Shown here piece by piece: positions 4,451 through 51,105 of a stretch of 64,000 nt of DNA (the first letter of the stretch is position 1; every line of letters starts with the position of its first letter). The stretch spans positions 29,468,001 to 29,532,000 of the forward strand of contig OX467086.1 in assembly GCA_950106755.1 (NCBI GenBank), read 5' to 3'. The translations under genes were made by a program, and so were the position numbers. The notes beneath the pieces were generated by a model. It did no database searches, was not told the DNA's origin, and saw only the letters and a program-made list of their open reading frames with translations. The stretch is from Climacium dendroides. Taxonomy: Eukaryota > Streptophyta > Bryopsida > Hypnales > Climaciaceae.

Positions 4451-5001
4451 ACTACACTAGTAACAATCAAAACAATACACTTGTCCTAATATATTAACAT
4501 TTGAAAAACAAAATAGGCTTGGAACTGAGAACAAGAAGTTTTATATCCTGAGCCTGGCAACCAACAGTGTAAGAATCACTCATATTTTAATCAATTTTCT
4601 TATTGTAGTTGAATCCAATAACATATGTAGTCACACTTTCGTTGTACCATTATTCATCTTGGGTCACATTCTTGGGCACACTTCGCACAGAAATTACGCA
4701 AAGCAAAATTGACACAATACTAAAATCATACAGAAAATGATAGAAGCAATGTTGTAGCGAGAATGTTCTTATTGGATTACAATGACCTAACGATAAAGAA
4801 TGAAAAGATAAATGCATTGTGGCTTTGGTATCCGAAAGGAAACACAAAGCTAAAAAACTCTTGAATCTCTATACGACCATGTTGTCCTTCAAAGTTCATT
4901 CAGACAAGAAAGCTCATGAAACGGACGCCAAGACCTAAATGAATCCCATTACTAAGAAGCTTCCGAGAAAATCAAGTGAGGGAGGGTATACTGACGTGAG
5001 G
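4451..5001. other. 3' flank of the thioredoxin gene
   Basis: AT-rich sequence between the satellite array and the minus-strand thioredoxin stop codon at 5002. It should include the 3' untranslated region of that gene. I see no other feature. Confidence 0.4.
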
Positions 5002-8006: not shown

Positions 8007-8640
8007 TCTAAAACCCTAGACCAGAAACTACAATACAATACACTGCCAGAGATTGAATCCACTTCAAGCCTTGTCTGCGAGAGATTGAATCTTTGGTGGA
8101 ATCTCGGTGACAAGAGCTTCGATTACAGCGGCAATGGAATTAACACTGTTTGGGGGAATTAGGGGAGCGTGGGTTAAGATTTGAGCGGCAAATTTCGACA
8201 GAGGCTGCGGATGGGTTGAAGGGAATTGGGAAAGGAAGAAGAGAGATAAGCTTACATAAGACAATTCAACACCCTGTCCAGACAGTTTGTATTCGATTCC
8301 AGACACCGTTCAAGTTCTGACACTTGTGAACATATCATAGCACCTATCTCGTTCGTATACTTGCTTTACAACTGTTTGATCCGTCCCAGACCCACCTACC
8401 CCAAAACACATTTTTACACACAAAATAAATGAAATAAAAATGGATTGCAGCCTCTTATTGGTTGAGGAACTGTGGAAGTAAGCTTCTCGACCAATGGGAG
8501 TCACCGTAGATAGAATGCTGGATGATATCTGTTGGATCATTCATCGCAAAATTGAGCAACTGAACTCTTCACTACGAGATAGCTGCACCACAGTTTATTG
8601 GGGGAGCTATGGCGAGTCGGCGAACGTCGCAAGGTACGTA
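8007..8640. promoter_or_regulatory. Thioredoxin 5' region and possible divergent first exon
   Basis: This stretch holds the presumed promoter and 5' leader of the minus-strand thioredoxin gene. On the plus strand a short frame begins at ATG 8609 (MASRRTSQ) and runs into CAAG|GTACGT, a good splice donor, at about 8634. It could be the first exon of a divergent gene sharing this promoter, but I found no continuing exons. Sequence from 8640 to 9320 shows nothing I can assign. Confidence 0.3.
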
Positions 8641-10859: not shown

Positions 10860-13050
10860 AGCAAGGACCTTTCCTTAGCAATGGTGTCAAAATGTAATGT
10901 AAATTTTGCCTATTTGACAAAACCACAAGGCAACTAGTATGTGGAGGTAATTCCTATGAAAAGGTCAATAAGTCTATCATATTGTGACTAAGGTCATTTG
11001 TTTAGTAATTTGGACATTTATCTATGATTTAGTTAGGGAATGAATAAAAGAAACCACACTCAAAATCAAATAGTCTTAGTCCATCCCCAATGCTATATAT
11101 ATAAGACACAATGTATGTGATTCCAATCCTACCTAGTAGGTTGGCTTGTATCAAATCCTCAAGTCAGATTGTCGTAGGGTTGATCAAATTCTCCTTTATG
11201 CATGCTCTATTAACATAATCAATTGACAAGTTATTTATTTGAAATACAAATAAACTTTTAGAGACAAAGTTCTTTAATTAATTTTTTTAATGGTTTTTCC
11301 ATCTAATCAATATTTTAATTATTAGCCTAATTGCCTAATTAATATGTCAATATCAAATCCATATTTCTATCAATTTGTACTGTGTGTAGAGCATAAAAAT
11401 ATTATGGTCATTCTTATTTTATTCAATTTGGGTCTTCACATCTACTCCATAGCTTTAGCTTTTTCAAAATCAATTTGTCTTAATCTTTGGTTATGTCTAG
11501 TTGGGTCAATTAGATAAAGAAAACACCTATAACCGTGGAGTCAATCAACTAGACCTACAACCATCTATTTGCTTTCTAAATCTGCAACTAGTTATGTTCA
11601 ATTTGATAATAGCTATTGACTAGCTATTAGACTTAGTGTGTAAATGTGAAATAATAACTAGTTATACATTGGTTATGGAAAATTGTCATTGATTTCATAC
11701 TACACAAAGAGGATTTTGCCACTAAGATTAATTGAATAGAAAGAAAATTAGTTATAATCCAGTCAAATTATTTAAAGCCTATATTGCATTGATCTCAAGA
11801 TTTTAATCCCAATTTTGCTTCAAACAATGAAATAAGGAATACTACCAATCACTTCAACTCTTACAATAACAAATTTTGAAATCTTACTTACAAATCCAAA
11901 TTTGCCACGAACTTTGCAATTCAATCACATACAATCTAGCACAAGTTCAACCAATTAGCTTCAATCAATTAAATTCACAAATAACCATATGCACAACATA
12001 CATCAATTTGATAATTATGCAACTGATTGACAAACAATTACTTCAACAATTCAAATTGTTGTTTCTTTTTGGCTAATTACACCAATTAGTTGAGTGATTT
12101 GCACTTACATAACCACTACAGACAAAACATGCAAACAATTAGGAGTTGATACTTAACACTTTGATTTACAACTATTAATGGGTTAGTTTCATACAACTCA
12201 ATACACCAGCAACATCATCAAAATGACAAATGCACCATTCACTTAGCCAATTAGTTCACAATTACTTGTTAACTACTCACATGCAATTTGATAAATAAGC
12301 ATTTGCACAATATTTTCACCATCCAATTCAATTTGACTTACACAAATTGGTCTCCAATTACTCAAAAATAAACTTGTGCAACAATCTTCACAAACTATTA
12401 GCTCAATTAGACTAGTTTATGCGCACAATATTTCCATCACATAGTATTAAACAATTTGACATTTTCCAAAGTATGTATACATCCAAACAATCAACAATTC
12501 ACACACACAAGCTTAATCATCAGAATCTTTCCACCATTATTTAGTACTAAGGAACAACTTCGATTAGTCCTTTATCAATTTGCAAATACTCTAGGTAGAC
12601 ACAACTCTAGTTGAGTTGATTAGTAATTGGACACCATTACAACACTCATCAAATTTTAATAATCAAATCTTCACAACCACTAGCTTACAATTATTCACTT
12701 AGCAAATTGATTAGCAATTGAGCCCACATAAAATACTTTATTCACAATTCAATAATTGTACACATTCACAAGCCCACAAATACTTTTATGAATTGATTTA
12801 ATTAAAATAATTTAACAACAATAGTAAACTCACAATGACCACTTGACCAACAAACACATTGCTGACTAAATTGATAATTTTTTTCAATACATTGATAGCT
12901 TTGGCAAATAGTACAACACTAGAAAATACAAAGATGTTGCTTGCTCTTCCAGACAAGAAAGAGAAAAAAAATTGACCTTTTAGACTAATAGTTTCAAAAC
13001 AAGAAAAGAAGAAAAGATGCAACTGTTCATTCTAAAATATACAACTATTC
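10860..13050. repeat. Old dispersed repeat rich in CAATTAG/CAATTTGAC words
   Basis: The start (TTTTGCCTA.TTGACAAAA, then GAAA.GTCAATAAGTCTATC, later TTATGCATGCTCTA) is alignable with 58690-59050. The following 2 kb in both copies is unusually dense in CAATTAG, CAATTTGA and CAATTGA words separated by 15-40 bases. No reading frame is conserved. Poorly preserved retroelement sequence is one explanation. Confidence 0.5.
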
Positions 13051-13179: not shown

Positions 13180-14490
13180 TACACTTGTAAGGCCAAATAG
13201 ATTGTCATGCCCCTATCTTCTTGGGATGCCCAATGAACCTTAGTGCGCAAGGGGGGGACCTTGGGGGTGACTTCCCAAGCCTTGCAATAGACTAGCAAGG
13301 GAAATTTGAGAGACTCCTGATCAAACAGGGCGCAATGATGCCCTGGTTTTGAAGTATAAGGTAAAGTGTCATACATTCATGGAAAACTCTTGATAATATG
13401 CTTCTAATGGCACAAAGAATGCATGATTTGAAGTTGTGAGCTAAAAGTTATGGCCGTCCAAAGTTGACTAGGTCCCGGTGGCATCGGGACACCTGAAGAC
13501 TAGGTGTGAGGGGTTCTCAATGAATACCATAAAAAATTATGGAATGTAGCATATCATTGGAAAGCTATGAACACAAAGAATCTAGAATGATGAGCATTAC
13601 GAGGTTCTAAGGCATGAGTCAAAAGTTATGGCCAAAAGAAGAGCCGTGGTGAAGGCGTGACACCTCCCCTAGTGAACCCGAATCTTTGGAGGGCCATAAC
13701 TTTACGAAAATTTGTCTAAAGGAGACAAGTGAGTAGTTCATTGATATCTACTCATTGTGTAGATGTCTAAAATGGGCTTGCATGTCGGATTCAGAGCTCT
13801 AAACATAAAGTTACGCCGATTGGAATATTGGAAGTTCGGGAGTCCAAACAGTGACGTAACTTGGCGATTTGAGTTGGAATTGGGTGGTCTTCCACAACTC
13901 AAGTGTGTTTAGAGTTCTCCTTCGACCTAGGATGGGGGATCTGCTGAATATCATAGAGAATACTATAGGAGCGATTTGTCTCCCTCTTGAAGCCCTAGTG
14001 AGTCCTAGTGACTCATGCTTGTTGTTGGTGACTTCACCACCACTTCAAGGTACCATGGGACACTTGTATGTGTCCCGTGGCATCGGTTGGATGGAGTCCC
14101 GCTTCTTACTAGGCCTCTTTGGATGTGTCCCGAGTTGTAAGTGTCGGTTACCTTTAGTGGATGAGTAGCAAATGCAAAAAAGGCTAACATGGAATGGGGT
14201 GACACTCAAGGGCGGTTAAGACCATTTTGAGTAGTGCCACCATGGATCTTTGCACATTAAGGTGAAAGTTCCGCCTCATGTTACTAAATGACATGCCCGG
14301 TGTCACGAAGGGAGTGTGTGCTAGTAGTCTCAGTAACTGGGACTTTGCAAAATGAGTTGGAAATGCGGACTAACACTGTGTGTACTTGGCATGTGCAGTG
14401 TTAGGTATTTTGTGACCAAGTGATGCTGTAAGTAGGTTGTGGTGAACCTATGGAGCTATTGGAAGCTGTAAAGTATCATTTGAATCGTGA
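13180..14490. repeat. GC-richer block resembling a retroelement non-coding end
   Basis: This stretch has visibly higher GC than its surroundings. It contains phrases such as AAAAGTTATGGCC, GGCATCGGGACACC and GTGTCCCGTGGCATCGG, the last two in variant repeats. ORFs on both strands (13179-13376, 13869-14168 and 14005-14205) show no recognisable domain. It may be a retrotransposon LTR or untranslated region. No second copy to pair with it was found in the window. Confidence 0.3.
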
Positions 14491-17451
14491 CATAGATCAA
14501 AATTTTAAAAAATCAATAGCTACACAAAAATATGAAAATCTCTAGTCACACGTACTTGCCTAAAATTGCTATGATGCCAAATTCAACACATTGGTATTTT
14601 AGGGATTAAGGGTGGTAGCTTTTGAGAGTGAATTCATACAAATATGATAGAAGAAATTTGCTACAAGAAGAAGAACTATATATTGTCCAATTATTCCAAG
14701 ATAGATGTTCATTTTTGTAGTTTCTTATGAGTAGTGGTTTTGAACCAAACTCTTGAAAGCATGAGAAGACAAAGTTTGTATTGTATAGTTTGTTTTTCAT
14801 ATAGGGTAGCTATTGTGACTAATATTATAAGATTATAAGATTAGTCAATTTTTCAAATTTTCTTGTTAGTAAGTAAAAAAATATTCCAAATCACCAAAGA
14901 ATGCATTATTTTGATATTGTATGCAAAAGTTATAAAGGGTCAAAGTCTAAAATAATAACTTTTGTTGATTAAAGGTAGAAGTGTACATGATCCATGAAGA
15001 AGTCCAATCCGGCTATACATGGAAATTCAAACCATCTAAAACCTTGCCCCGATTTCTTCCTTGGGGCTAAAAGGTTTGGCACCAAAACTATGCCACCTAA
15101 AGTCACATGTAGAATGAGTTGTAGTTTCAACCTAATCCTAGTATAAAGCCCTTGGGCCAGATTTGGAAGAATTGAGTGATTCTATGGGTTCAAACTCGCT
15201 GAAAATTCAAGCTAGCCTTAAATCTGGACCAAGTATAAACCGGGCCTTAAATTAAACCCCAATTGTTATCCTATGCATGATTTGAACAAACAAAGCAATT
15301 AGCTTCAATGTTACAACAATATGTATGATCTTGCAAAACGTGTCTTGTAATAGCGAAATCCTCTTTCATAATTACCTAAGATAGTTGTAAGGACTCCTCC
15401 ATCCTTTCTTGTCATCAAAGAATAAATAACACTTATAGTAGTAGGTGCCAAAGAGTGTAGAATTAGAACTACAAAAATTTCATGAGCTATGAAGTAACTA
15501 CACCTAAAATTGCACAAATTGAAACAATTCAACATGATTTATATTATTATATTGAAAAATGTATACAAAGTGTTTTTACAAAGTGGTTGAAATTACTGTC
15601 GTTTTCCTATGTATTAAACAAAGTTGAAACATGTAAAAAGTAATACAAATTTTGCTACAAGGTTCATAAACATTTAATGTTGAACTTGTATCATCCATGC
15701 AATTTTGAAATTCAAAAATCTCATACAGAGAGAGAAGATCAAGTTATCACCCCGTGAAGATGGGCTCTTTTATAACAAACTCTTTGACAAGTCTAGACAT
15801 GTTGCAAAACATTTTCTTGAAACAAACCCTTCCTGAAACAATTTTTTCTACAAAATCATTTTCATCATTTATCATGTGCTATATTTGAAATATGTCATAG
15901 CTAGGTAGGAGGATGGAATCATTGTGCTTAGATTTCCTAATTAGCAAGGTGAGTTCGCCACTTGTATATGACTAGAAAGCAAACTTAAAGAGTATTTTTC
16001 ATGTGCCGAAAACCTAAGATAAGGTAGGAGGTCTATAAATTGTCCATTTAAGCCTACCTATCTCATCAATGATAGTGATAGATATTTCAAGGAGCATGTC
16101 ACTCATTCCTATATATGGGATGAATTTAGAATTTAGTCAATTTAAGGACCTCCTACCTTAGTAACAAAAGTCATAAGTTTAGTTTGAGCAAACTTGAAAT
16201 ACAAATCTATAGAATCCTTATAAAATGCTTATAAAGAAGAACTTGAGGATCTTTGCCTCATTTGTGCCCATTCCAGTGCCTATACATCCCAAACAAACAA
16301 TTGTAGTTAGTTTAAATGTAGACACCATGTGTTTGCAACTAGGGACTAGTTGTTATCCTTTTCACAAACCACAACATATCACAAAACACTAGAAAAAACA
16401 CAAGGAATAATCCATTGAAAATAATGTCATATCTTTTATCAAACCTTGTCAGTCATGGTGTTTCTCATTGAAGTAGATCTTGAACACTATTAGAGTGTAC
16501 AACAAGGTATTTGAATTCTAGCATAAAAATTCCATATATCCTATAGTTCCTTGAACTCCACAACATAGCACTACTCCATAAAGTAGAATAGCCCAACATC
16601 GTCAATCAACCAATTTTGACATCTATAGAATCCTCCCATTTGCACCGGTCTTCCATCCATTTTTGTAGAGTGTGTAAATCATTTTCTTTGGGCAAGCAAT
16701 TGGGTGCTATTGTCAAAGAATGACATTAAATTCACATGGCTATTTATGGATGGTTTACGGTTGCCATAAAGATGTGGTTCAATAAGTGTTGGTTTAGATG
16801 AGCATAGTTGTGAATAAATCCTTGTCATAACAAGTTGTAGCTTTAGCATAAAAGGGGTACTTTAGAATGTTGAACTTGTGCTTTTAAAATTCTCGTAAAA
16901 TAGAATTAGGATGATAGGTCATTGATTTTGAACCTTTTTAAGGCGGTCATGACCCTCACCTACTAATAATTTTATGTTTTTCCACCAAAAGTATTTAAAA
17001 ATTCTTATCATTTTCAATTCTTATCAAATTATTATGCTTCTACTTGTATTTCAATCAATTCAACTAATTCTTTTTTCTAAAAATATGAACAACAATAAGT
17101 ACATTACACAGATAACTAGATTGCAAATCTAGGTGATCATAGGTTGTTCTACCTTATAACCATAGATTTCTAGAACTTTATAGCCTGGCCTCTCCAAATA
17201 TGACCAGCATCACTATAACTAATGTACCACAACACTACAAATTGTATTCCCCATTCGGTATTTTTGTACCTCATGGCATTAGGAGGCCATTCGGTTGTAG
17301 GTTGTCCTAATTTAGACTTTCATGTATTGTCATCCCTTGATTGACTCACTTACAAAGTTTTTAGTGAGTGTATGGTAGAACCACCCACAGTTGACCACTT
17401 AAGCAATTCTGTGCATGTTGTGGAGTAGTATAAGCACCGTAAAACTTCTGT
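14491..17451. other. Intergenic AT-rich DNA with fragments of dispersed repeats
   Basis: No gene is supported. The first part (14500-14620) carries a short family-A-like segment, AAATCTCTAGTCACACGTAC followed by CCTAAAATTGCTAT and a TTTTAGGGATTAA end, seen again at 29690-29760. The rest holds only short unconvincing ORFs. Confidence 0.4.
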
Positions 17452-30793: not shown

Positions 30794-33577
30794 CTAGTAA
30801 ACGACTTGTAGGCAATCTAATGGGCTCATGAGAAAGCTATTATTATATGCGTAAAGCGGCTGTTGCAGCATACTCATATCAACAGTGCTGGACCCTGTTC
30901 TTTGAAATTCGGACATGTAATCAGGCTTTGTCGAGCAATTGTTGGAAGGCGTCTGCACCAGAAACAGCACCCACAAACTTGTTACAACAAACCTATACAT
31001 TGGCATTATTCATATGTGAAATTACAACCAGAGCAAACAGTGGTGGAAATCACGATGGAGTTAGTTCATTTTTCATGATTTAGTCCTTGTAAATAACACA
31101 TTTAATCCAAATTTATGGACTTGTAGAAATACTTTGGCCCACGATGTTTGCATTGAAAAAATGAGTGAAAAAGACACATCAACCATCCTGATAAACAAAT
31201 GTTCTATGGGCCAATTCAAAATTATACCACATTCCCAATACACGACTCACCTCATTGTCATTGTAAGAAACGCCCGTGCTTGTGAGCTCCTGAGCACAAG
31301 TAATATGTGCTTGGTTGTCGCTTGGAATGCGATATTCAGAACCACCCAACAACACATTATCCAGCGAAAGCTCATCGTCCCTGATATCATCAAGAAAGAA
31401 TAAATTTGTCTCTTCACATGGCAACTGCCACTTGGCATTCATCTTCTCACATTCGACCATAGATTGATTGTCAATCAAATCTGCGTAATTAGGAAACGGG
31501 CCGAGTGTGTCAAAACTACACGTAGGTTCGTTGACGCGAGCCCAACCCAATTCCTCTTCCTCGGAATTTGAGCTGCTCAAAGATGATGATGATACAGTGG
31601 GTAAACCTTGAGATGATTGCGGGATGTTACTGTGATCTCGATACAACAATAAGCTGCTATGATCTTCACACGAAGAAACAAATGAGGGTTGCGAGTGGAA
31701 TGAAAACTCATGTTGTTGGGTATCGAGAGACGTCGTAGGTTGAGAATAGAAGCTCGTCGGATGTGAGGTTACAACAGAGACGCAATCACTGAGTGTGCTT
31801 GGACCAAAGCTGGCGGCGTATTCTTGGGCTTTATGCTTGACAAAGACTGTGACCTCCTTGAACATGGCGTCGTTTTCAAGGTCGTTCAAATTTAAATGGG
31901 AGGGGATAGTCTCCGCATAGGCGTTCAGATTCAAGCACGGGAAGTTGGACGGCCTTTTCTTCTTGCACTTGAGAAGCTTGCGGGCAGCATCCACTGCCCG
32001 CGCTGCGCCTACCTCGGTGTCGAAAGTACCCAGCCATACCTGAAGGAATGTCCATGACATTTGCAAAAAGCTTCTGTTAATTGGAAAATGTAAGATGAAT
32101 GATGAAAGATTTGGACAAGCTCATTTCTGACTTCCAATTATTTTGCATTCAAGAAAAATTGTGTAATATATCAATAAGAAAAAGAAAGAATGATCAACAT
32201 CAATCAATTATAGAGATATTTTGCAGAAGTTGCAATTACATATTATGATTTCTCTGAAAGTGAAGTTACTGTATTCTGGTTTGAGCACTTACAGTCGGAG
32301 TTAATTTATTGAATGTTGTGCTACCTTCTGTTTCAAAAAAATGAAAAACCACATGATTGTGTTACCTTCTTGTCCACAGATTTCCATTCGGCCACTCGAA
32401 TCTCGGCCACCCACTTGCGGAGGTCAGGCCTGAATCGCACCCCAAAGTGCTTGGAGCTTTCTTTCCCCCGGGCCTTCTTGCGAGCTGATTGCCCTTTCAA
32501 GCTCACAGTCCTGCAAGAAGATGTCAATTTCTTTAAACTGGCGATATTCCACAAGCCAAAAATTGAGAGACATATCTTCACAAAGATCTAATTTCAGGCC
32601 ACAAACTATCGCCAATTTAACGAAATGGACGTTATATCAATACTTGGCAGATTCAGACGTTTAAAACCGGCGTCATACACTTCTCAAGTTTTGAAGTCTG
32701 CCATACGCTCAACCCCTTCGAACGAGACACTTACATATTCCTTTTATGTCCGGAAAATCTGTCATGTTATGTATACATCTGATTGAATAGCTTTCAAATA
32801 TATATCAAGCTTTGAACATAAGCGACAGTTGATTCATTGTCCCCTCGAGACAGTGTGATTTAAGAGGGTGAAGTGTAGACTGACATCTATTATGATACAA
32901 AACCAATTAAAATTCTGCACAGGTTTTCTAATAGCCACAATAGTGGAAACAAGCGGAAACAAGCGCAAACCCGAGAAATGACCCTCGAGAAGACCAACTA
33001 GACCAATTGCGTTTTTCTCATGGTTCCTGATCTACGTAGACCAAGAATGCAAGGGAAGGGAACTAAGATGCTGATGATGAAGTAGGGACAAAAAGATGAT
33101 GAAATTTCTTCAAACAATTGAACAAATTGTCCACAGATGCAATGGCAGCAAGAATTTGGTCAGCAAGCAAGATAGATAGCAAGCCGGTAATATCATGCGG
33201 TAAGCAACACAGAATACCAGTGCGTCTGATGGCCAAATAAGTTTGAAATTTGAACAATTGCTAACAGTCAAAAAATGTGAATGCTAAATCAGTCAAATCC
33301 GCATTTCATCACCTTCTTCACAAGCTCAATTATTCACAAAGTCTACACTTCAAAATCCAGCTTTCAAGCTCACTCAAACTAACATTATGAAGTTGGTAAT
33401 GAATTAACCAACAAACCTGGAGATGTGGCCTCTGCCCTGCAAGACATTCGACTCCTGCTTCTTAGAATTGAATCTCTCTTTCTTCATGTCACCACCCTGG
33501 TACCCATTTCTTGAGGAGAGAATTTGCTGAAGCGCCAAGGCTCCGTCGGTCGCAAAAGAGCATTTAGGGTCTGGCAT
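30794..33577 (-). CDS. AP2/ERF-domain transcription factor
   Basis: A sequence-specific nuclear DNA-binding regulator; its targets cannot be read from sequence. I read four coding exons: complement(30794..30952, 31251..32039, 32366..32510, 33417..33577), 417 residues from MPDPKCSF, all with in-phase GT-AG junctions (donor GAG|GTGAGT at 31251). The AP2 domain spans about residues 75-136: HFGVRFRPDLRKWVAEIR, then VWLGTFDTEVGAARAVDAA and ending SNFP. An intron splits it just before VWLGTF. It is preceded by a basic stretch (SARKKARGK) that could be a nuclear localisation signal. The loop between WVAEIR and VWLGTF (VAEWKSVDKK) and the segment RKLLKCKKKRP are unusual compared with standard ERF/DREB domains. 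The rest is Ser/Gln/Asp-rich and probably disordered activation sequence. I cannot place the subfamily. Confidence 0.88.
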
Positions 33578-38831: not shown

Positions 38832-38840
38832 TATTATAAG

Positions 38841-38888
38841 CAGGGTTGTTAAAGTATGAGCAGGGAGCGATGAGCGTTGAGCATTGAG
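38841..38888. repeat. Left terminal inverted repeat of the MULE
   Basis: Begins CAGGGTTGTTAAAGTATGAG, then GGGAGCGATGAGCGTTGAGC. It pairs with 50276-50323. Preceded by the 9-bp duplication TATTATAAG. Confidence 0.85.
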
Positions 38889-40612
38889 AATTTTTTGAAA
38901 AATTTGTGGAAAACCTATAATTTTTCACCATAAGGGTTTTTGGTCTATGGTTTATTATAAAAGCATAAAACTATAGATGCACTCAAAGAGGATGAACAGA
39001 GATGAATGGAGATGAATGGAGATGAACAAAGTTGGATGAATTATTTTTTAGTTGACTTTATTGAATGAAATACATTTGTTCATGACAATGGATGAAAATG
39101 AGTTTGGATGATTAATCAATGATTTGAACTATAAAATCATTTGTTTTAGATAAATGTCACTTATCAAGTATTTTAAATCCAAGGTTTAAGTGGATTTTTT
39201 TAAGCTAAGGACCTATGCTTATATGGTATTCTAAAACCATTTTAGGATGAAGATACCATTTCTAATTAAAATTCACAATTCTTTTCAAGCATTTGTGAAG
39301 TTCACCAAATTTATTTTTATGCTAACACCAACATTTACTATTTCTAATTTCATGTTTTCATCAAAGAGAAGTACCATGTTGCTAATAGAAAGAAATAGAT
39401 TCAATCCAAAAAAAATTCTACTAATTGACAATAGTAACCGTTATCTTTTGAAAATTGAAATAGATGCCCTTTTCACTACAACTTTAAAGATCACCAAAAT
39501 GAAAAATAACTTAAGAATATGGTAAAGTACAAGAATGTAGTGGCCCTTTTAGTCTCACTACATGACATTAGAAAATCAAGTAACAACAATAGTCTCTAGA
39601 GCAAAATCAATTGATCCAATGCCACATATGGGAGAAGAATGATCACTGGCTTCACTACTATTACTATATGTAAGCCTTGGTGTCTCAACATTTGCTTCAA
39701 GGTCTAAAAACTTCTTGACAGCAATATTGTATGAATGATGTTTGGCAATAGAAATAAGTGATGGAGCCTCTGCTATAGATGTTGTTAGAGTCTCGATGTA
39801 ACATGGCAAACTCTTTGGACTAGGAAAAGGCAAGAGCACCAAATGCTTGAGAAGATTGCCTCTACAAGATGCAATGATTAAATAATTAAAAACTTTGAAT
39901 AAATTAAAATACATTGCACAATAAAAGAAAATAAACACATGCCTAAAAGCATCAACAAACTTATTTACAATAACGTTTTTTTCGAGGCCTTGTAGAAGGC
40001 TTGACAATGTCATCATCATCAGAATCATTCAACACTATAGGCAAAGGCCGCTTAGTTTGGACGGTGGTAGTAGAAGTAGAAAGGATGATCAAAGGTTGAA
40101 GAAGACCTTCAAAGATCTCACTATCACTCTCTAAGGCCACCAAATGACATCCAATGTTGCGGTATGCATGGATAGAGGCCTCTGTTTATTGAATGCAATG
40201 TCATTAGTTGCACCAAATATATTACATACAATGTAAAAATTATATGGTTTCAATAATAAAAAGTAATGACTAATGAAAGCTACCTGTAGATGCAAAACAA
40301 TCCAATACCACATTACTAGGTTTTGAAGATGCCTCGATTAGTAGCTGTACAAAATAGAGGGTCTTTCTCACGAGCACCTCTCCACGGAATTGTACCATTC
40401 ATGAGCTGAGTCTGCAAGGAGGTGTAATTGTGGAGAAGGTCAACTTCTTCAAGGTTTGTATTTGCATCACTAAGTTGTTGGTTTATAGTAATAGAAAATT
40501 TGGATTCCACCGATGTTTCCTCCCATTGTCTTCGTACAAATAAGAGGATCCAAAATGCAAGGGATAAACAAGTATAACAATTAGTATTTTACAAATACAA
40601 TTTTACTAGCAC

Positions 40613-40918
40613 TATACCAAAATGTGGTAAAAAGAACCGCAATCGAAATTCATTGCAATTTTTTCCACACAATGTTGTATATGCTGTTGACTATTGCTGC
40701 AACCTTTTTTTTCATTTTCTAACTCAGTTTTTGGAATTTGGAAGCATGTAATATACCATTGGAATTTGGAAAGGTGTTACACGCTATGAAATTCCAAAAA
40801 TTCAATTCCAAAATTGAAAAAGAAGGCTACAGTTGTAGTTAACAACATGTACAACATTGTGGAGAAAAGAACCGCAGTGAATTTTGACTGCGTTTCTTTC
40901 TTACCACACTTTGGTATG
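40613..40918. mobile_element. Palindromic MITE inside a methyltransferase-gene intron
   Basis: The left half begins ATACCAAAATGTGGTAAAAA, then GAACCGCAATCG, and later CACAATGTTGTATATG. The reverse complement of the right half begins ATACCAAAGTGTGGTAAGAA and has CACAATGTTGTACATG. The arms are about 100 bp each and imperfect, flanking an AT-rich centre. It sits between exons ending at 41009 and starting near 40520. No coding capacity. Confidence 0.75.
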
Positions 40919-42789
40919 GTACAACTATAAGATAAAAATCAAAATATTTATAAACTTGTAAAATGTAAATTTTTTTCATATGAATGGAAAAGAAAGTTGA
41001 TTACATACCTTAGTCCAAAATGAGGCCTTACAGAGCCAAGTCTCTAAGGTCATTGTGTTGAAACCGAGGGCGGGGAATCTAAAACCCTCCCTAGAAGTCT
41101 CACTTGAATTCCACCACCTAAGCCAACGAACCTTGTAGTTTGGTTGAACTTGGCATGTAGAAATCCTTTGAAGTTTCTCCAAGGACATCTCGGGCTTCTC
41201 GTTGGCGCTGTAATGCAAGTTAATCTGAAATTTGAAAAGACATAAGTATAGTAAAAATCAAGTGCAAAAATAATCATATAAATAAAAAAGTAAGTAGGCA
41301 TAATAATATACCTTTTCTAGGAATCCAACGCCGTTTTTTGGATTTGCAATAGCGGATTGTTTATCAAACTCCGTTCGAAATCCTTTGATAGCTACAATGG
41401 CGGCTTGAGTCATGGTCTCATGAACACCCTTCGGAGTTCATTCTTCCAGCCATGTCTTCTCATAGTAAGTTCGCACAACCACATCTGAAACAGTAGCAAT
41501 TTCTTGCTGCACATGAAAAACATGAACTTGAAATGAGTACAAAATGAATTTTACAAATCACAACAATTGAATGAAAAAGTATTACAAACAAAAGATACTC
41601 ACTCGATGAAGGAATTGTATGAAGACGGGAGATGTCAATGGATACTAAATACCTGGTAGCTTTCTGGCCTTACATTTCTTGTAATCTTCATCACTTAGAA
41701 GCCCCTTGAACTCTTTCAATTGCAAGTTTCCATAGGTACTCATTCTGTGCAATTGTTGAACCAAGTTGCTTTTGACATGGGAGTGCTCTGTAGACCTGCA
41801 AATATCAATGAAAATAGAATGTAAGATGAATGAATGTGAAAGCATAGAATATTACAATACAATTGAAGAAGCGGTAAAATAAAATAAATATTGATTCAAC
41901 AAACATTAGAACTCACCAATTGATGTCATTCATAGCCTCCAATAGAATGCATGTACAGCCTTCGAGCACTAATAACATACAATCAACAGGCAAATGCCAC
42001 TTGCGGTCATGACGATGTATTATGTAGATGTAAGCATACCAAGCCGCCAATCTGTGATTGCCATCCCATACGAAAAACATGTGATTTGACAAGTGTGAGA
42101 TGGTTGGTTGAGAACTCAACCAACATTCAAATTGGTCATTCTCGTGTATCCAGTGTTCATCCCATGTCTCTATGATCTCAGGTGTCACTAACTTGGAAGG
42201 TCCCTTGTCATTTGTTGTTGATACGTAAAGTACACGATCACCTTGTCAATATCCATGAACAAACTCAACCTCCAATCGTTTCACTTGACTTTGGAGGAGA
42301 GGACGGACCAATGGAAGTCCAATCATCCTACACAAAGGAATATTGAATCGAGATCTTGGACCACCACCATTGAAGAGCATGCTGTTGATGACTGCATTGG
42401 AGTCCAATTTCTGACCATTTCGCACATCCTCTTTCACCTCATCTATCATTCGCTCTTCAAAAACTTTATCAACACTTTGAATATCAACGATGCTGTCAAC
42501 CTACAATCAATAGAAAATTGAACCCAAGTTATAATTAACATTAAGAAGTCATGGAAATGAAAACAAATATGACGACAACTGTAATACAAAATCAATCATA
42601 GAATTTATTATACAAACATAAATAGAAATGCATCTAACATGAGGATTGCCAATCACAAGTTGAGAATCATCATTGGTGACTAGCTCTAAGCGCTCCATTT
42701 GTGGAAGCCCTCCATCGATGTCCATAAAGCTCTGTTTTGAAAAAACAAGAATAAGTATTTTTTACATCTTATATTAAAAATCAGCCTAA

Positions 42790-43735
42790 ATAGTGACCGT
42801 ATTAACAAGGTTACATTTTCAGTCCAAACCAAACATCGGGAAAATACATTTCGAACCTCAGACTTAAGTTTAGATCCTCTAAGTGAGTGTTTAGAATATA
42901 TTGGCAGAAGTGACCTCGTTAACGAGGTCTGTTTTGCCAATATATTTCAATAGTGTAAAGAAAGAATAATGAAGGCTAAACCCTAAATTGAACCATGTAA
43001 GTGATCTCTAAAAAATCCAGAGAAAGAAGCCTCGTCAATGAGGCCACTTTTTTCAATGTATTTCAGTAGTGAGAAGGCAAAGAAATGAAGCCTAAAGTGA
43101 AAACTGAATTCTCTTAGTAATCTCTATAAACCTTGAAAAAATGACCTCGTTGACGAGGTTACATTTTGCAATCCATTTTAGTAGTCTTTTAAAAAAAACC
43201 GAAGTCGAAAATTAGAACTGAACTGTCTTTGTCATCTCTCTATACCCTTGGAAAAGTGACCTCGTTAACGAGGTCACATTTTGCAATCCATTTCAATAGT
43301 CTTTTAGAGAAAACTGAAGCCTAAAATGAAAACTAAACTATCTTTGTCACCTCTCTAAACCTTGGAAAAGTGACCTCGTTGATGAGGTCACATTTTGCAA
43401 TTGATTTCAGTAGTCCTTACAAGAGAAAGCAAAATTTGAATCCTAAACTGAAATTATCTTAGTGATTTCAGAAATCTCGAAAAAGTGACCCCGTTGACGA
43501 GGTCACGATTTCCAATGTAATTCAGCAATCTGTAGAAAGAATCTAAAATTATGCATCAAAATTAGAAATCGTCTTAGTAAGACTGTAAAGAACCCAAGAA
43601 TGTGACTTTGTCAACGAGGTCAAGTTTCAAACCCTGAAATTGCAATCTTCTAAAAATCATACATCAAAACCGGAACCGTTTGAGTGATCTCTTAAATCCT
43701 TGAAAAAGTGACCTCATCAACGAGGTTAAGTTTAC
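42790..43735. repeat. Minisatellite with a palindrome every ~115 bp
   Basis: GTGACCTCGTTRACGAGGTC, a 20-22-bp palindrome, recurs in nine units near 42793, 42908, 43026, 43141, 43257, 43370, 43486, 43602 and 43709, giving spacings of 107-118 bp. Between palindromes the unit carries ACATTTTGCAAT.CATTTCAGTAGTC and a GAA.CTGAA-rich part. Some units vary in compensating fashion within the palindrome (for example GCCTCGTCAATGAGGCC). It lies in the first intron of the ParB/methyltransferase gene. Confidence 0.88.
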
Positions 43736-44449
43736 AACCTGAGAAAGGGGTGTTCAGAAATGACACCTCTTGAGGATTTCTAGAAACTTGAACTTCCATC
43801 GCATCGCCGCCTTCGATGGTGTCAGAGACACTCTCCCCACCGTCGCTGCACGCCTCTCCATCCTTGCGCAGCATGCCACTTCGTAAGTTCATTGCGGAAG
43901 CAACCCTAAGCCAAAACACAGCAATGGAGAAGGAAGAGAACTACACCAAAGCAAGCCGAAGATCAGCCCATGGAGTTGTTCTTTGGTTTAAAAAATAAAT
44001 AAAAATAAAGAAGAGATTGGTAGATTTAGGCCAAGGGAATCTTTCTAATAAAATCTGTGATTTCATAGATTTCTGGTCCAAATTTTTGGAGCACATAAAT
44101 TATAACCTCAAAAGTAACCTCAATTTTTTCCAGATTTTTTGAAGTTACGAGGAATTTCACAAAAATCGGCAAAATCTTTTAAAAATATTTGGGCAAGATT
44201 TGGCTGAAAAATCAGCCGATTCTGAAGATTTTAGAGAAGATTCCAAGATGCTGAATTAGTTTTTAGGCCATAGAACATTAAAAAATGCTCCGTTTTTTGC
44301 GCGCTATATTCCGTTGAAATCGTCTTCTCGAAATACACGAAATGAAGTTTGGTGTCAAATTCACCTCTAACAAAAAATATTCAACACTTACAATCAACTC
44401 CTCACAATGTAATGGCTCTAGTCCTACCTATAAATACATAAACTTACCA

Positions 44450-45008
44450 ACTCTGCGTTGATCACTAGGGACATGTTCTTCTCTAGCATACTCGGTTGGC
44501 ATACGTCCACTTTAGTTTCATCAACAGTGTCAAGCTTGGCAATATCCATTCCTTCACTATTTTGTGTCAAACTAAACTCATGTTCAAAAGGTGCATCTTC
44601 AATCCCATCATCTTCATACGACAAGGTTCGAACAATGCTACTAATCTCACCGCCATTAGATTTCTGTAAGTGCCTAAGCATCTTCAATCTTTCTAGCTGT
44701 TTTTTGCTAGAGAAACAAAGTCCTGCTTTACGTCTCTTTTTATGAGTACCCTTCGGCATCCCTCCAACCAAAAAATCCAAGAAAGCGAACTCGACTTTCT
44801 CATTAGCAATACCGCAATCTCTCCGATATATAGCACTCTTCAAGTCTTATGAATGTATTCTCATCCAATTCATTATAACTTCTCCAAATAAAGCATCTAC
44901 TGACCAGGATATAAACGGTCAATAAGATCATCCGTTCTTTGCTCAACTGCTTCATAATCACTCTCACATTTGAATACCCCACCACTACATTGGAAGAAGC
45001 CTCCATTT
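44450..45008 (-). pseudogene. Unidentified accessory ORF of the MULE
   Basis: A minus-strand frame reads VEFAFLDFLVGGMPK, then KKRRKAGLCFSSKKQLERL and a long acidic tail, ending at GAGTTG|GTAAGT near 44450. Upstream, separated by a frameshift and stops, another stretch reads GGVFKCESDYEAVEQRTDDL and then IDRLYPGQ after an AG acceptor at about 45008. Both have protein-like composition and belong to the same element, on the same strand as the ParB/methyltransferase gene. They may be its 5' exons or a separate small gene. The GC-rich stretch with an ATG at 43892 favours a separate gene. I recognise no family. Confidence 0.4.
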
Positions 45009-45139
45009 GGGGCCTTCTAATTATCCTTCAATGTGAAAGTGGCGCTATGTACAATTCATTATTCCAAAGATCGGGTACTGGTAACTAAATTTAAAAAATT
45101 CAATTGTTGGCTATGCATTAAATCTTTAAATATGGAGCC

Positions 45140-45217
45140 TTCAATTCAAATTCCAAATTTCAAATTCCAAATTTCAAATTCCAAATTTCAAATTCCAAAT
45201 TTCAAATTCCAAATTAC
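45140..45217. repeat. 14-bp tandem repeat between the divergent MULE genes
   Basis: About five copies of ATTCCAAATTTCAA in tandem, in the roughly 340-bp gap between the minus-strand ORF and the transposase frame. It may sit in a shared promoter region. Confidence 0.9.
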
Positions 45218-45347
45218 CAAAATCCTACATAAAAAAGGTCAAATCCATGTTTACTACCTCTTTGTCTTTTACCTATTCTCGCTAGAAACTTTTGGGATCC
45301 TACCAATAGTTTCATGTAAGCAATGACAGTCTGTAGGAATTTGTAGA

Positions 45348-48300
45348 TTGTATACACATTCCAATATAGACATGGCACTTGTTCATGGTGACGAGTACAG
45401 CATTCCAATTTCTTTTCCTTGTAGCGATGGCGGTAGTGCATGGGTATCTGCTTTGATTCTCAGTGTACGCTTCAATTTAGAATTGTCGTCTCTATGGGTG
45501 GAAGAAGAGCTATTTGATTCTCAGGGACTTCAAGTCACATCTACAGTCATGCTATTCAAGATCAAAATAGACTCCGAAGATGGCTGGAGGCTTTCTCCAG
45601 GCAAGTATCATGCTTTTGGCACTCCTAGGTTCATTAGATCGATGTCAACTGAAATACTCACACCTGGGTCTGCTACTTCTACTGTTCAAATGTCTTGGGG
45701 AACTCGTGTGAAAGTAGAATCTCCGAGTCATAGCCATACTGATCTTACAAAGTCTTCCGACAATGATGCTACTATTTTCATTGATGCAAGTCGCAAGCTA
45801 CCTAACATATCCGAAAAGTGTACAGACACTATTCAAAGTATGGACAACACTGAACATGATAGCATGTTGCATCCTTCAATTCAGCAAAGGGCATCCAAAT
45901 TTGTGAGTGTCTTAGAATGCCTTAAAGATATGCAAAGTCGTCTGCGCGCACGAAATGAATTGAAGTTCTTTAACCTCAATGCACTTCATTGTGAATCTGT
46001 ACGACATCTTCCTCAATCATTCAATGGAGACATTCTTTTTTAATTACCTCCTCTTCTTTCTTCGACATCTCCTTCTGGAAGTCGACCCAATTCAACTTCT
46101 TTGTCTTCTGTAGGTTGGCAACTAGAAGGCATGGATCGTAAATTTGATGGCCATAATTGGACACACACACACTATACAAACATCGCAATCAACTTTGGCC
46201 TAAACTTCCGCTACTCCTTGTGTGTGGGCCACCTAGTTTGCGAGAACAAAGCTTGCCCTAGACTACGCCGAAGTGGCAGCAAAAACGAGACAAAATGGGA
46301 GGGGTCGTCATCTAGCGTCTTCCTTGTGGGAGAGCAGTCTCTATCAAAGTCTACTCTTGTATGTCGAATATGCAAAGAAGTTCCTTTCTATAAAGCTTCA
46401 TGCTCTTGTCGCATGTATAGGGTCTTGAACTCTTTAGGCCTTCCCAGAGCTTGTATCCACATTGGAATTTATGATCATCCTATGGGTAGAGGCATCTGTC
46501 GTGATTTTGTTGATCGAACAACATCCTTGATTGATGAAGAGGTATCAAAAACGCCTACAGCAACAAATTTGGCCATACGACTTGCTGCTAGTAAAGAATT
46601 CCTTGCATTTGAATTGTTTGGAGAGGAGCTCGGAGAGGAGGGACTACAAGGTGACTAAAAGCCACTTCACGGAGAAGCACTTGAGGCAGTTATGGATAAA
46701 TTTCGAATACTCAGTTCACCGAGTATTCGGAATACCATCCCTAATTTCCGTCATAGTGCAAGTGGGGGACCCATTGACAACATTATCTCATTGAAAATGA
46801 AGAGTACTTATTCATTTATTCAAGATAGTGAATTTTCAGGCCAAGGTAAAGATAAGGTTTACCTTTTTAAGATGTCTGAGGAAGGCCCAGGAAGTGGAGT
46901 GGATTTGGTAAGGCGAATGCAACCGGGGGGAGACTTGCAAAATTCTTGGTGCATGTTTGATCATGTAAAGAGGGTGAAAGGATGGACGTCAATGGTTGCC
47001 CACGTATATGATCCTGAATTCTATCGGGTTCAAACTATTTGTGTTTGTGACATGATGAGTGAGGATGCTGTGAGCCAAGAACAAATGTGGAGATCCCTTA
47101 ACTCAGTCATGGCGCGTTACGCGGTTTCTTCTCTACAGTTCAAGGGTTTTATGGCTGACAATGCGATGGCAAACTGGCATGCTATTCGGGTGGTGTATGG
47201 AAGTGGCAACAAGCAAGAGCCCATGTAAGATCGAGAGCGCTCTTGTCTATTTCATTAGACAACTTCACTAAACAGACATACAAAAAAACTCATTCGACTT
47301 GAATTCCAAGAGACTCATAAGAAGCTTTGCAAACAATACAAGGATGCAAAGACAATGGCGGAAGTAGAAGAAAGATACCTTGGAATTAAAGGCTGGTGGT
47401 TTTCTTCAAGGACTGCATTAGAGGATTCTCTTCGACAACTGAATGATTAGTTGGGTTTCTAGCACTTCCGATATCAATAGTGGGGTGGATTCTTAGAGTT
47501 GGTAAGATACATGCCTCCTTCCATTTCAATTTTTCTACTTAATTGTTCAACTTCTATTCGTAGAGTAGTTGTTTTTCTATCTTAAATGTATATGTGGTTT
47601 CTATTTAATTGTTTTCATTCACATCTACTGAATTCTTACAAATTGAATTTGAACATATAAAATTCTTAGTACTTAAATGACACTTTCAGAATCAAGGGAG
47701 TCTTATATTGTTACTTTAAATTGTTGTTATTGGTTTAGAACTTGAACTTAGAAGAACTGGCCGAAATGCCTTCATGCAACTTGGCTGAGACAGTTCACAA
47801 CAAATGGTTGCAAATGTCTAGGAAGAGGGGAACATACTTGTACGTCGTCACTACTGATAACATGATGCGGGCTTTACAACAATCGACTAATTATTGGGCA
47901 TACCTTCAAGGGTATGCATCTGGAACCGGTCCCCACTTAGATGAACTTCGCCTACGAGCTGCAAGACGAACCAAAAATCCAACAAACTTTACTAAGGCTG
48001 TTGCTAAACTACCAAATGCTTGTCTATTCACCACAAGAGTTCCCCACTTGGAAGGGGAAGAAGTATTTGGTTCTTCAAAACGCAAACTAAACCCTACCAC
48101 CTGGATCAGATAGTGATTCTCACTCCCACAATACAGTAAACTTTTCTGCACCCAAAGTTCAAACTCGGTCAACTAGAGCACGCACTGAACCAGGCACATC
48201 AATGCCAACGCCGACACCAATGTTGATAGAGAAAAGACAACCAAGCACACTATGTCCCCATGCTACCAAGGTACTTGAAACAAACTGCAACCTTGCTTTG

Positions 48301-49161
48301 TGGCACATTGCTAGATGCAAAAAAGAAGGAAAGACTTGTCATGGAGTTCAAGTTGGGATGAAGAAGAAATGTGGGGCCAAGATAAACAAGTCAAGTAAAA
48401 ATGGAATAGCAGCACCTACCTACAATGGCCGCATGACAGAATATGGAACCAAGGCCATCATCAACTTTGATTTTTGGTTTTGTGTAGATGACCTTATGTG
48501 TTGTGCAGGAGGCTCTAAGGTCAAGTGGGTTCACGACTAGCCTCCTTTGCCAAATGTGTGGCCTATTGCATGTGGAACACATCTCACCAAATCAGAGATC
48601 CTTTCTTTGGAGGAAGTAGGATTTTAATTGCAAACTGAGGAACTAGACGAAGTAATGCTCCATCTCTTTAATCAAGAGAGTACAGATGGAGGTGTATCTT
48701 TCCTTCACTCAAAACAACCAGATAGCAATTTGCAACCATCTAATGGTGATATGCACCCGACAAAGCGATTGAATAGGACCATATAACGTAATCCTAATGC
48801 ACCGACAATTGACCACTGCAACAAATGAGAGATAGCACGAAACCTAAAAGTTGTCGTTCAATCCGTAGTCGTTATTCCATATCCTGGCTATGGTAGAGTG
48901 ATAACTCTACTGTCCAGCATCTTTCCCAACCAAAAGGTCTATTGAGTTACAATTTCAAACTTTCCTACTTGTATCTGCGAAGACTTCATCACCATGAGTA
49001 CAGCTACACTTGGTAGTAGGAAATCTTGGGTGAACTGCAAGCATTTGTATTATGTCTTTAGGTTCATTTGCAAGGCAAATTTTGAGGACAATAAGTACAT
49101 ACATGCACCAAGTTTGAGCTTTGATGAGGTGAAGCTACTTCTTGTAGATAGCAATTTATAA
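45348..49161 (+). pseudogene. MULE transposase with C-terminal SWIM zinc finger, decayed
   Basis: Frames at 45348-46043, 46101-46658, 46692-47228 and 47739-48113 lie in one reading phase separated by single stops. An intron fits 47502-47738 (TTG|GTAAGA...TTTAG|AAC, phase 0), then one frameshift near 48090. The DDE core includes MFDHVKRVKGWTSMVAHVYD, then FKGFMADNAMANWHAIRVVY and, after a stop, a CLFH(W)-TTSLNRHT block, in the order of MULE transposases. Near the end TCICEDF (about 48967) and WVNCKHLYYVF (about 49030) give CxC...CxH, the SWIM zinc finger typical of MULE and FAR1-like proteins. At least three stops are TAG where Trp is expected. In life the enzyme would cut and paste the surrounding element. 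The N-terminal 230 residues show no domain I know. Confidence 0.75.
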
Positions 49162-50275
49162 GATGTTGTATATTCATCTTGTAGTACTAGGTTGAAAAAC
49201 TACTTTTGTTTAGAAGTGGATATAGAATGGCCCATTGAAGTAGTTGACACATATGCTAAATCCTAATTAGTTTAAGGTGGAAATAGTTTGTAGCAGCTTA
49301 TAGACAACTGAAATGATTTGTAAAACCATAAACATAACAAAAATACATTTAAAAAAGGCTAAATTTAGCAAAAATACATTGCAAGAAGAAATGTTACAAT
49401 TCTACAAATGAATCTTGAAAGTGCTACTACATTCTAAGGAGAACTTATTATAATGAAACAACATTATAGAACTGATTGTTACATATCTCTAAATGAACCC
49501 TCTAAGAGTTTCTTAAAGTAGCCTCACCCATAACTGTTACTGTACCTATAACCATCACTTCCTTAAATCTTGGAAAATCTTGGGGAGTAAATAGATGTAA
49601 TTGCAGGAATGTACCTCATCTAAAAATTTGACATAAGTGGTGGTTTTAAGTCAATGTACAATCGGCCCTTTTAAAAATTCAAAACTTATTCTCACAATGT
49701 CCAAAAAATAAATTAAAAAATGCATTGAAATTCTTTTTTTCTTCTAAGTACAATTCAATAATTTTTTGGATGTCTATTAATCAACAATATATTCCAAACC
49801 CCTTATTTTGACGGTTATGGGTGTTTCTACCTTAGTTACAAAAAACACAACCAACCTCAGATTAGTTAACAAAGTTTTAAAGTCAACAATGCAAACTTCA
49901 AAAAAATTGTAAATTATTATTTTTACAAGGAAAAAAGTTCATTTTTTAAAGACATATTACAAATATGTAAAGAAAATTTTGGGAAGATGGATGATGAATG
50001 GATGACATGAATGAAGCTCATTCTTTCATCAAATCTATGGTTGAAAAATCATCTACTTGTGGGAAATGCTAGTCTTCATTCATGCCCATTCATGCAACAT
50101 TTGAATGTAAAATTTATTATTTTCAATAAAAAAAATTGCAATTTCTTGGATTTATTTTTTTATTTTTGGTTTCTGACATTTCTATATTTAGATATGACAA
50201 CCCTATTTATTACTTTGACATGTCTATTTTTAGTAAAATTCCTCATAGTGAGCGTTCAAATCTAATTGCTCGTTG
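49162..50275. other. Right subterminal region of the MULE
   Basis: AT-rich non-coding DNA between the transposase end and the right terminal repeat. It includes GATGGATGATGAATGGATGA at 49986, matching the GATGAATGGAGATGAATGG repeats near the left end (38990-39030) as direct subterminal motifs. Confidence 0.5.
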
Positions 50276-50323
50276 CTCAACGCTCAATGCTTGTTGCTCC
50301 CCGCTCACACTCTAGCACCGTTG
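50276..50323. repeat. Right terminal inverted repeat of the MULE
   Basis: Pairs with 38841-38888. It ends CTCTAGCACCGTTG, followed directly by the 9-bp duplication TATTATAAG at 50324-50332. Confidence 0.85.
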
Positions 50324-50384
50324 TATTATAAGTGGGGTGGTAGGGCATAAAACAACCTATGTTAGATATGTAAATCAAAATAAA

Positions 50385-51105
50385 TAAGAGCTCTATTACT
50401 CATAGTCAAGTCAAAAGTAGGAATTGTGTTTAAAGTAGAATTTTAGACTTCATTTAAGTACAATGGAATAATATTTTTCAATAAAAATTGAACTGAGTTA
50501 ATATGAAAAACCAAAATAAATTTCATCTCCAAAAACCTAATTGAGATTTCAAGCCTTCATCACAAAGTTCAGACCCTACGATTTGTCAATAGTTGTCATG
50601 TGGTTATCATTATTTCATGGGTTCACACATTAATTACAATTTATTGCATCATTACAATGCATTACTTTGCATTGTATAATGCAATTGCAAGTAATGCATT
50701 GTAACAATGCAATACAATGCGAAGTAATGCATTGTAATGATGCCATAAATTGTAATTAATGTGCGAACTCATGAAACAATGATAACCATATGATAATTGT
50801 TGACAAACTGTAGGGTCTAAACTTTGTGATGTTCAATCAAAAGTTATGGATAAAGTTCACAGAGGGGTTGAAAGGAACCTTTTCTTTGACACTTAAAAAA
50901 ATATTCATTAAATTATATCCATTACTTTTGATTGAAAGATCAAAATCACATGGGTTTTTACAGAGTAAATTTAGCTTGATTTACCAACTTTTATAAGTTC
51001 AAAGTTTTTGAAAAAATTAATTCTACTATGCCAAAATGAAGTTTGAATTTCTACTTTGAATACAATTTCTACATTTTGACAATGAGTGGTCAAGCTTTTA
51101 TCTTC
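50385..51105. repeat. Fold-back element with a nested 274-bp palindrome
   Basis: The left part 50390-50520 (AGAGCTCTATTACTCATAGTC, GGAATTGTGTTTAAAGTAGA) is the inverted counterpart of 51000-51100. Between them, 50558-50694 and 50695-50831 form a near-perfect palindrome whose arms start CATCACAAAGTT.AGACCCTA and meet in AATGCATTAC-rich sequence. A relative lies at 53448-53880. It is non-coding. Confidence 0.8.

Follow-up and report, generated by a model that had tools for sequence, protein, structure and literature searches.

A putative long-term second gene of a Mutator-like transposon family in the plant Climacium dendroides, with a methyltransferase-derived domain and a palindrome array in its first intron

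What does a gene with a bacterial-type DNA amino-methyltransferase domain do in a plant transposon? We considered this question for a 64-kb window of the 412.6-Mb Climacium dendroides assembly (G000:C34:29468001-29532000; unless stated otherwise, positions are those of the window), in which an 11.5-kb transposon carries a spliced accessory gene as well as a transposase gene. A preliminary description of the window had proposed that the accessory gene encodes a ParB/Srx-like domain fused to an N4/N6 amino-methyltransferase, that a Mutator-like element (MULE) had captured or long carried it, and that it might mark the DNA of the element with N6-methyladenine (6mA) or N4-methylcytosine (4mC). There are more than 100 related exons in this one plant genome, mostly with open frames, which makes the use of bacterial-type methyltransferase folds by transposons for marking or protection directly testable. 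In the reading that we favor, with a probability of about 0.42, a large family of Mutator-like plant transposons has long carried this gene as its second one, and the gene encodes a sequence-specific DNA-binding regulator that acts on an array in its own intron, as VANC proteins do.

The exons of the accessory gene are given here from the 5' end, together with a foldback miniature inverted-repeat transposable element (MITE) that interrupts them. J26 is a sister copy of the element.

43767..43892, minus strand: exon E0, with a start codon; the splice donor is inferred, and the border was set by eye and by comparison with J26
42639..42731, minus strand: exon E1, with usable splice sites
41917..42500, minus strand: exon E2, the ParB-like motif exon, with VWDGNHRLAAW and one in-frame stop
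41653..41795, minus strand: exon E3, with usable splice sites
41312..41502, minus strand: exon E4, with one in-frame stop that is common to 10 of the 11 copies compared; borders judged by eye and against J26
41009..41224, minus strand: exon E5, matched in all 10 sister loci
40623..40936, minus strand: foldback MITE, apparently two copies fused, at the site of the lost exons X1 to X3
40284..40529, minus strand: exon E6, which encodes motif X and, with VVLDCFAST, motif I of the methyltransferase domain; it has one frame break and an uncertain 5' end
39973..40181, minus strand: exon E7, with the strand after motif I (...HLVALESDSEIF...) and a domain match
about 39576..39858, minus strand: last exon E8 or its 3' part, an open frame that is also in J26; borders judged by eye and against J26

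The block ...FFVWDGNHRLAAW... lies in the exon at 42500-41917, VVLDCFAST in the exon that ends at 40284, and GCHLVALESDSEIF in the exon that starts at 40181, all on the minus strand. Both blocks that the preliminary description had assigned to one spliced minus-strand gene (VWDGNHRLAAW and then VLDCFAST) are therefore present where it placed them, and its borders for the gene (43892-39576) are about right. It was also correct to call this copy dead: judged from its sequence, the copy has two in-frame stops (in E2 and E4), one frame break (in E6), a broken transposase gene, and a deletion of three exons, including those for motif IV. The accessory protein is predicted to have about 1,100 residues, with an N-terminal part that contains a DGNHR motif and a C-terminal domain that is derived from amino-methyltransferases, the latter by a profile match for the sister copy.

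Upstream of E0 is another minus-strand open frame (44424-44846; GGMPKGTHKKRRKAGL...), which is also found in J26, from position 8301 of the joined locus. A Pfam scan of this frame gave no match; the frame could belong to the accessory gene as an additional 5' exon, or it could be a third gene of the element.

First, is the C-terminal domain really related to methyltransferases? In the window, the similarity of the exons to N6/N4 amino-methyltransferases is weak but specific and is confined to the C-terminal end of these enzymes. Against the Pfam profile PF01555, the joined protein from the window scored E = 0.0082 and its C-terminal piece scored E = 0.0012 (19.2 bits, profile positions 171-217 of 221; the next match, FerA, had E = 0.062), and both are below the cut-off. 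With the frame break closed, the C-terminal piece matched PHROG 6952 (DNA methyltransferase) with E = 2.1e-6, and DNA methyltransferases accounted for all four of its PHROG matches and all three of its NCBIfam matches; when the piece was reversed as a control, it had no PHROG match. In J26, exons X3, E6, and E7 together matched PF01555 with E = 2.5e-9 and 37.9 bits (cut-off 26.7) over positions 32-217 of 221, and this was the sole Pfam match of the full J26 protein. The same exons matched PHROG 6952 with E = 1.6e-9, and six of their seven PHROG matches were methyltransferases, as were nine of the ten PDB matches of J26 at E up to 1 (best E = 1.6e-4, with adenine-specific enzymes at the top).

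We also considered whether these similarities might be due to chance or to another Rossmann family, since the window copy alone and the pieces of L036, a copy from a second, intact-looking subfamily, both fall below the Pfam cut-off. However, J26 is above the cut-off over most of the profile, every match with E < 0.01 in Pfam, PHROGs, NCBIfam, or the PDB is a methyltransferase, and the reversed control was empty. We rejected this explanation and consider it scarcely credible. Two subfamilies have motif X, motif I, and the acidic residue that follows motif I, and the PDB matches include class-beta N6-adenine methyltransferases (DpnA-like 5hfj, MboIIA, CcrM, and RsrI), which share motif X, motif I, and the following strand with our protein. 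By these matches, the C-terminal domain is derived from a bacterial-type class-beta N6/N4 amino-methyltransferase, so this half of the proposed fusion stands. In a search of 5.8 billion proteins, the window protein had no match at E = 0.001 (2742 candidates), its C-terminal piece had none at E = 10 (21 candidates), and the methyltransferase part of J26 had none at E = 0.01 (617 candidates). Searches of viral contigs and a scan with Rfam gave no matches.

Second, what kind of element carries the gene? When we scanned the window for inverted repeats, one pair, 11.4 kb apart, marked the ends of an element at 38841-50323. The terminal inverted repeats of this element are short, and a 9-bp target-site duplication flanks it without a mismatch:

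38832..38840, no strand: left copy of the target-site duplication, TATTATAAG, identical to 50324-50332
38841..38900, plus strand: left terminal inverted repeat (CAGGGTTGTTAAAGTATGAGC...), identified by its alignment score and present in sister copies
45327..49161, plus strand: broken transposase gene, divergent from the accessory gene
50254..50323, minus strand: right terminal inverted repeat (CAACGGTGCTAGAGTGTGAGC...), identified by alignment and present in sister copies
50324..50332, no strand: right copy of the target-site duplication, TATTATAAG, the same nine bases as on the left

Over about 60 bases, the alignment of the terminal repeats scores 52, as compared to 34 or less in 1000 shuffles; the plus strand of the window contains the nine bases TATTATAAG at three places. 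Between the ends, the transposase gene on the plus strand (45.3-49.2 kb) and the accessory gene on the minus strand (43.9-39.6 kb) stand back to back. The window's transposase is 87% identical to that of J26 over 711 amino acids, and the part of it that was found in the genome search (G000:C34:29514641-29515357; 90% identical to the J26 query) contains one TAG and two TAA codons. A 9-bp target-site duplication is typical of Mutator-like elements, for which the class rule is 8-11 bp. Terminal inverted repeats with a duplication in this range were found in the window (9 bp, exact) and in all nine sister copies with both ends mapped (9-11 bp). The transposase pieces that we scanned did not match the MULE transposase or SWIM models in Pfam, and a CxC...CxH pattern was seen by eye only. 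Because of the lack of a Pfam match, we base the label on the 9-bp duplication, which supports a Mutator-like element, and on the pattern seen by eye. Thus, the SWIM-containing MULE transposase of the preliminary description was not recovered by profiles, but its assignment of the element to the Mutator-like class fits the duplication.

Third, is the accessory gene an old partner of the transposase or an accident? We searched the genome for X3 (one of the exons that the window copy has lost), E2, and the core of the transposase, and kept the best 150 matches for each; the pair counts that follow are lower bounds, and a few of the matches are two pieces of one exon. X3 had at least 150 scored matches (from 851 first-look candidates) in several subfamilies, with identities down to 36%, and 115 of the best 150 are free of stop codons (counted by eye). 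There were at least 151 scored matches for E2 (976 candidates) and at least 150 for the transposase core (1055 candidates). For at least 48 of 149 X3 places (one overlapping fragment, C37:22364699-22364878, was left out), an E2 exon is listed on the same strand at a distance of 1.7-5.6 kb upstream, while six shifted controls gave 0 or 1. Similarly, at least 30 of 150 E2 places have a listed transposase 3.7-8.9 kb upstream that points away from them; the other three orientations gave 1, 2, and 1, and four shifted controls gave 0 or 1. Two of these 30 are second pieces of one exon. Of the 28 loci that remain, 13 belong to the window's subfamily (identity of at least 68%), and the other 15 have matches of 39-49% identity. 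The preliminary description had expected relatives to lie beside transposases, and these divergent loci, all in the same genome and oriented as in the window, bear this out. The gene order is kept across subfamilies, with a single orientation towards the transposase, and the pairing is therefore old and maintained. On this evidence, the accessory gene is a long-term partner of the element and not a recent or chance capture.

For the sister copies, we took the 20 kb that surround each of 10 array loci, out of 13 noted among the genome sites listed. In all 10, the accessory gene adjoins the array that we describe below. The right end of the element is also present in all 10, and most of the 400-base left end is present in nine; the other, J22, has only 27 bases of it. 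Direct repeats of 9-11 bp border nine of the copies (eight exactly and one with a mismatch, where the ends may slide by 4 bases), and their score was reached by just 0.1% of 2000 random placements. The transposase of the window had a tblastn match in three of the loci and none in the other seven.

J26 is nearly intact: it has one stop codon in X2, an altered splice acceptor before E2, and one stop codon in the part of its transposase that was read. It carries three extra exons, X1 to X3, between E5 and E6 (41009 to 40529 in the window), and these include motif IV. In J26, the three exons are flanked by two foldback MITEs (12491-12812 and 14430-14758 of that locus) with ends like TACCATACCAAAGTGTGGTAAG. 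The window aligns to J26 from the left side up to and through the first MITE and then from the second MITE onward to the right, and the two alignments overlap within the MITE, so the exons were probably lost by recombination between, or fusion of, the two MITEs. X1 to X3 are absent from 10 of the 11 copies compared (the window and nine of the 10 sister loci), and these same 10 copies share the stop in E4. Therefore, it seems that one dead copy multiplied, probably in trans, which is also suggested by the seven loci without a transposase match.

These shared defects are also what might be expected from an accident of the Pack-MULE type, in which a host or bacterial gene was swallowed once and had no function for the element. 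But at least 150 X3 matches in several subfamilies, down to 36% identity and mostly stop-free, with one gene order, one orientation to the transposase, and ratios of nonsynonymous to synonymous substitution rates (dN/dS) below 1 (see below), do not fit with such an accident. We rejected it and consider it very improbable. As for the transposon origin in the preliminary description, carriage is upheld by the terminal repeats, the duplication, and all 10 further loci, while chance capture is contradicted by a gene that is old and repeatedly paired.

Fourth, does the protein methylate DNA in the ordinary way? In class-beta enzymes, the motifs run in the order IV...X-I, and motif IV is D/N/S-P-P-Y/F/W; the preliminary description had proposed to check intact relatives for a DPPY or SPPY motif. 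The strand ahead of the profile match in J26 reads FDLIVADIPDGLP, which is in register with (D)xIxxDPPYG; this register is from our own alignment, as the match to PF01555 begins after that strand. In nine X3 exons from across the subfamilies, the motif reads DIPDG, NIPDG, DISDG, DIPEN, DMPEG, DIPEN, DISED, DIPEG, and DVPEG. None of these nine copies has the canonical motif, and the motif's region is deleted from the window copy. Instead, motif IV has the form (D/N)-(I/V/M)-(P/S)-(D/E), with an acidic fourth residue in all nine. The long N-terminal part and the introns also set the gene apart from class-beta enzymes. In addition, the first glycine of motif I is replaced by serine in J26 and by alanine in L036.

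Among the five pairs of X3 exons with over 65% identity, dN/dS was 0.12 (L042-L043), 0.26 (L039-L041), 0.27 (J26-L037), and 0.39-0.40 (two pairs with L038); among the more distant pairs, synonymous sites are mostly saturated, and the five that gave an estimate had dN/dS of 0.26-0.40. By these estimates, X3 evolves under purifying selection. Because motif IV lacks the aromatic residue and has an acidic fourth residue, it is doubtful that the protein marks DNA by the ordinary chemistry of 6mA or 4mC, as had been suggested, and ordinary catalysis of either kind is doubtful as well.

This bears on whether the protein might be an active, self-marking methyltransferase: bound to the element that encodes it, it would place 6mA or 4mC there, and with this mark the element would pass as non-host DNA or avoid silencing by 5-methylcytosine. 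Motif X, motif I, and the following acidic residue in two subfamilies would fit, as would the selection on X3, and the authors of PMC12477816 suggest binding to the own element and its epigenetic modification for the algal transposon Sola1-1_Ec32 and similar ones. However, none of the nine copies has Y, F, or W in motif IV, and the first glycine of motif I is changed in both copies where it is noted, so we consider this explanation unlikely.

Fifth, what might the protein act on? Intron 1 contains a regular array:

42793..43729, no strand: nine palindromes of the form GTGACCTCGTTAACGAGGTCAC or a variant of it, spaced at 106-117 bp within intron 1

The palindromes start at 42793, 42910, 43026, 43141, 43256, 43370, 43485, 43602, and 43708. 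The rest of the window has no further sites at seven or fewer mismatches, and 0.015 sites are expected by chance per 1.5 kb of shuffled sequence. Across the whole genome, there are 318 sites at two or fewer mismatches, as compared to 2 for the pattern read backwards. Intron 1 has 9 to 14 palindromes in each of 11 copies, and in all 11 the array lies shortly upstream of E1. The 123 palindromes from these copies, selected at six or fewer mismatches, have 84% pairwise identity, as compared to 50-60% for the 20-40 bases of flanking sequence in the same orientation; for the window's nine, the values are 75% and 49-51%. Thus, the 22-bp palindrome is much better conserved than the remainder of the repeat unit.

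The array might instead have no relation to the protein. It could be a minisatellite, a site for the transposase, or a hairpin or insulator, and the methyltransferase-like protein could have its role elsewhere, such as in a partnership with the transposase. The regular 115-bp period would fit with growth by slippage, and the conserved divergent pairing with the transposase would fit with such a partnership. Against this are the 22-bp palindrome, which is kept far better than the rest of its unit, and its position in intron 1 just upstream of E1 in all 11 copies seen, and we regard an unrelated array as rather unlikely.

Our favored reading, a regulator that acts on its own intron array, would work as follows. 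The accessory protein would gather on the palindromes in its own first intron and, once bound, would hold the divergent promoter region of the element open or tune it. It may thereby counter silencing, as VANC proteins do when they act on the tandem motifs within the introns of their own genes. In this reading, the methyltransferase fold would be used to bind S-adenosylmethionine (SAM) or DNA, or would carry out an altered reaction; we propose this because the aromatic residue that stacks on the base is missing from motif IV in the nine copies read. A site-specific anti-silencing protein that is like VANC is therefore favored over a classic methylase.

The comparison is with VANDAL elements, which are Mutator-like and also carry a gene other than the transposase. 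In Arabidopsis, VANC21 binds tandem motifs, such repeats are also present in the introns of VANC21, and DNA methylation is lost at VANDAL21 elements (PMC5735166). Tandem short motifs in non-coding parts, including the gene's own introns, are thus common to both systems. Unlike the palindromes here, the VANC21 motif (YAGTATTAY) is not palindromic, and the part of PMC5735166 that we rely on does not mention a methyltransferase domain. The likeness is one of arrangement, with an array in the gene's own intron, and we do not claim homology.

A bolder version, which we consider somewhat doubtful, is a very large clade of plant transposons with a fixed second gene for a site-specific binder, whose methyltransferase domain was rebuilt around an acidic motif IV (D-I-P-E/D). 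It would catalyze a new SAM-dependent reaction on DNA or act as a pseudo-methyltransferase reader, and it would act on the intron palindromes to escape silencing. The VANC strategy would then have been invented a second time, independently and from parts of bacterial type. The absence of the catalytic aromatic residue sharpens the question of whether 6mA or 4mC marking, the guess that comes first to mind, is correct, and the array of palindromes is a ready candidate for the target site.

Several observations weigh against a regulator that acts on its own array. The threshold of six mismatches somewhat inflates the identity of the 123 palindromes, and arrays are recorded for the window's subfamily (the 11 copies). 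The sister loci were chosen because they have the array, so the presence of both array and gene in all 10 is partly due to this choice. Also, a minisatellite with a 115-bp unit could appear and be maintained even if no protein bound to it. As for the domain, the L036 pieces scored just E = 0.016 and 15.6 bits against PF01555, below the cut-off, and a search of the whole genome with PF01555 gave no matches at E = 0.001 from 88 candidates; we guess that single exons score too low. Finally, neither exon E2 by itself nor an alignment of five copies of it matched any ParB or sulfiredoxin model in Pfam, PHROGs, or NCBIfam or any such chain in the PDB.

The remaining lead for a ParB-like part is its motif, F(F/Y)V(W/C)DGNHR(L/R)(A/I)AW, which reads VWDGNHRLAAW in the window and VCDGNHRRIAW in a 41% identical subfamily; DGNHR is the same in both. 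Motifs of the type (I/V)xDGxHRxxA are associated with the ParB/sulfiredoxin superfamily. Other comparisons did not extend this lead. The one PHROG match for this part was to a PHROG of unknown function (E = 0.27), E2 and E3 of the window matched solely glutathione S-transferase and NUP88 chains in the PDB (E = 0.034-1.2), and the E2-type exon of the second subfamily had no Pfam match. With hhalign, the probability was 0.1% against three ParB-like sequences (two of them composed). An AlphaFold model of the window's E2, made without an alignment, was uninformative (pLDDT 35.5). Profiles, PDB chains, and hhalign thus gave no support for the ParB/Srx domain of the preliminary description, and the name reflects the DGNHR motif.

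Has this kind of gene been seen before? It has been reported from algal transposons: PMC12477816 describes a ParB-methyltransferase gene of 1,104 amino acids in a brown algal transposon (Ectocarpus Sola1-1_Ec32), cites similar ones from green and red algae, and gives the idea that transposons mark or protect themselves in this way in a few sentences. In our search of the literature, which covered few subscription journals, we found this algal report and none on a plant element of this kind. As in Sola1-1_Ec32, the gene in Climacium is on the strand opposite to the transposase and encodes about 1,100 amino acids with an N4/N6 methyltransferase half; the ParB half is present here by its motif only. 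Sola1-1_Ec32 belongs to another transposase superfamily and has an algal host, whereas the elements described here are from a plant and have a non-canonical motif IV and a palindrome array in intron 1. Bacterial-type amino-methyltransferase domains are also found in the rotifer protein N4CMT and in the 4mC methyltransferase of Marchantia, which are described as host enzymes; the SPPY motif of N4CMT was shown to be catalytic (PMC8885841). In contrast, the gene described here belongs to a transposon and lacks SPPY in the nine copies read.

Other features of the window lie outside the element. Immediately beyond its right end is an inverted repeat of 120 bp with 90% complementarity (50558-50831), probably another foldback element. 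Tandem repeats (CTTGGTACCGTCAAAAAGCTCTCG...), whose periods range from about 149 to 395 bp, are at 2342-4452. A 313-amino-acid open frame on the minus strand (31182-32120; VWLGTFDTEVGAARAVDAA...) resembles an AP2/ERF transcription factor by eye.

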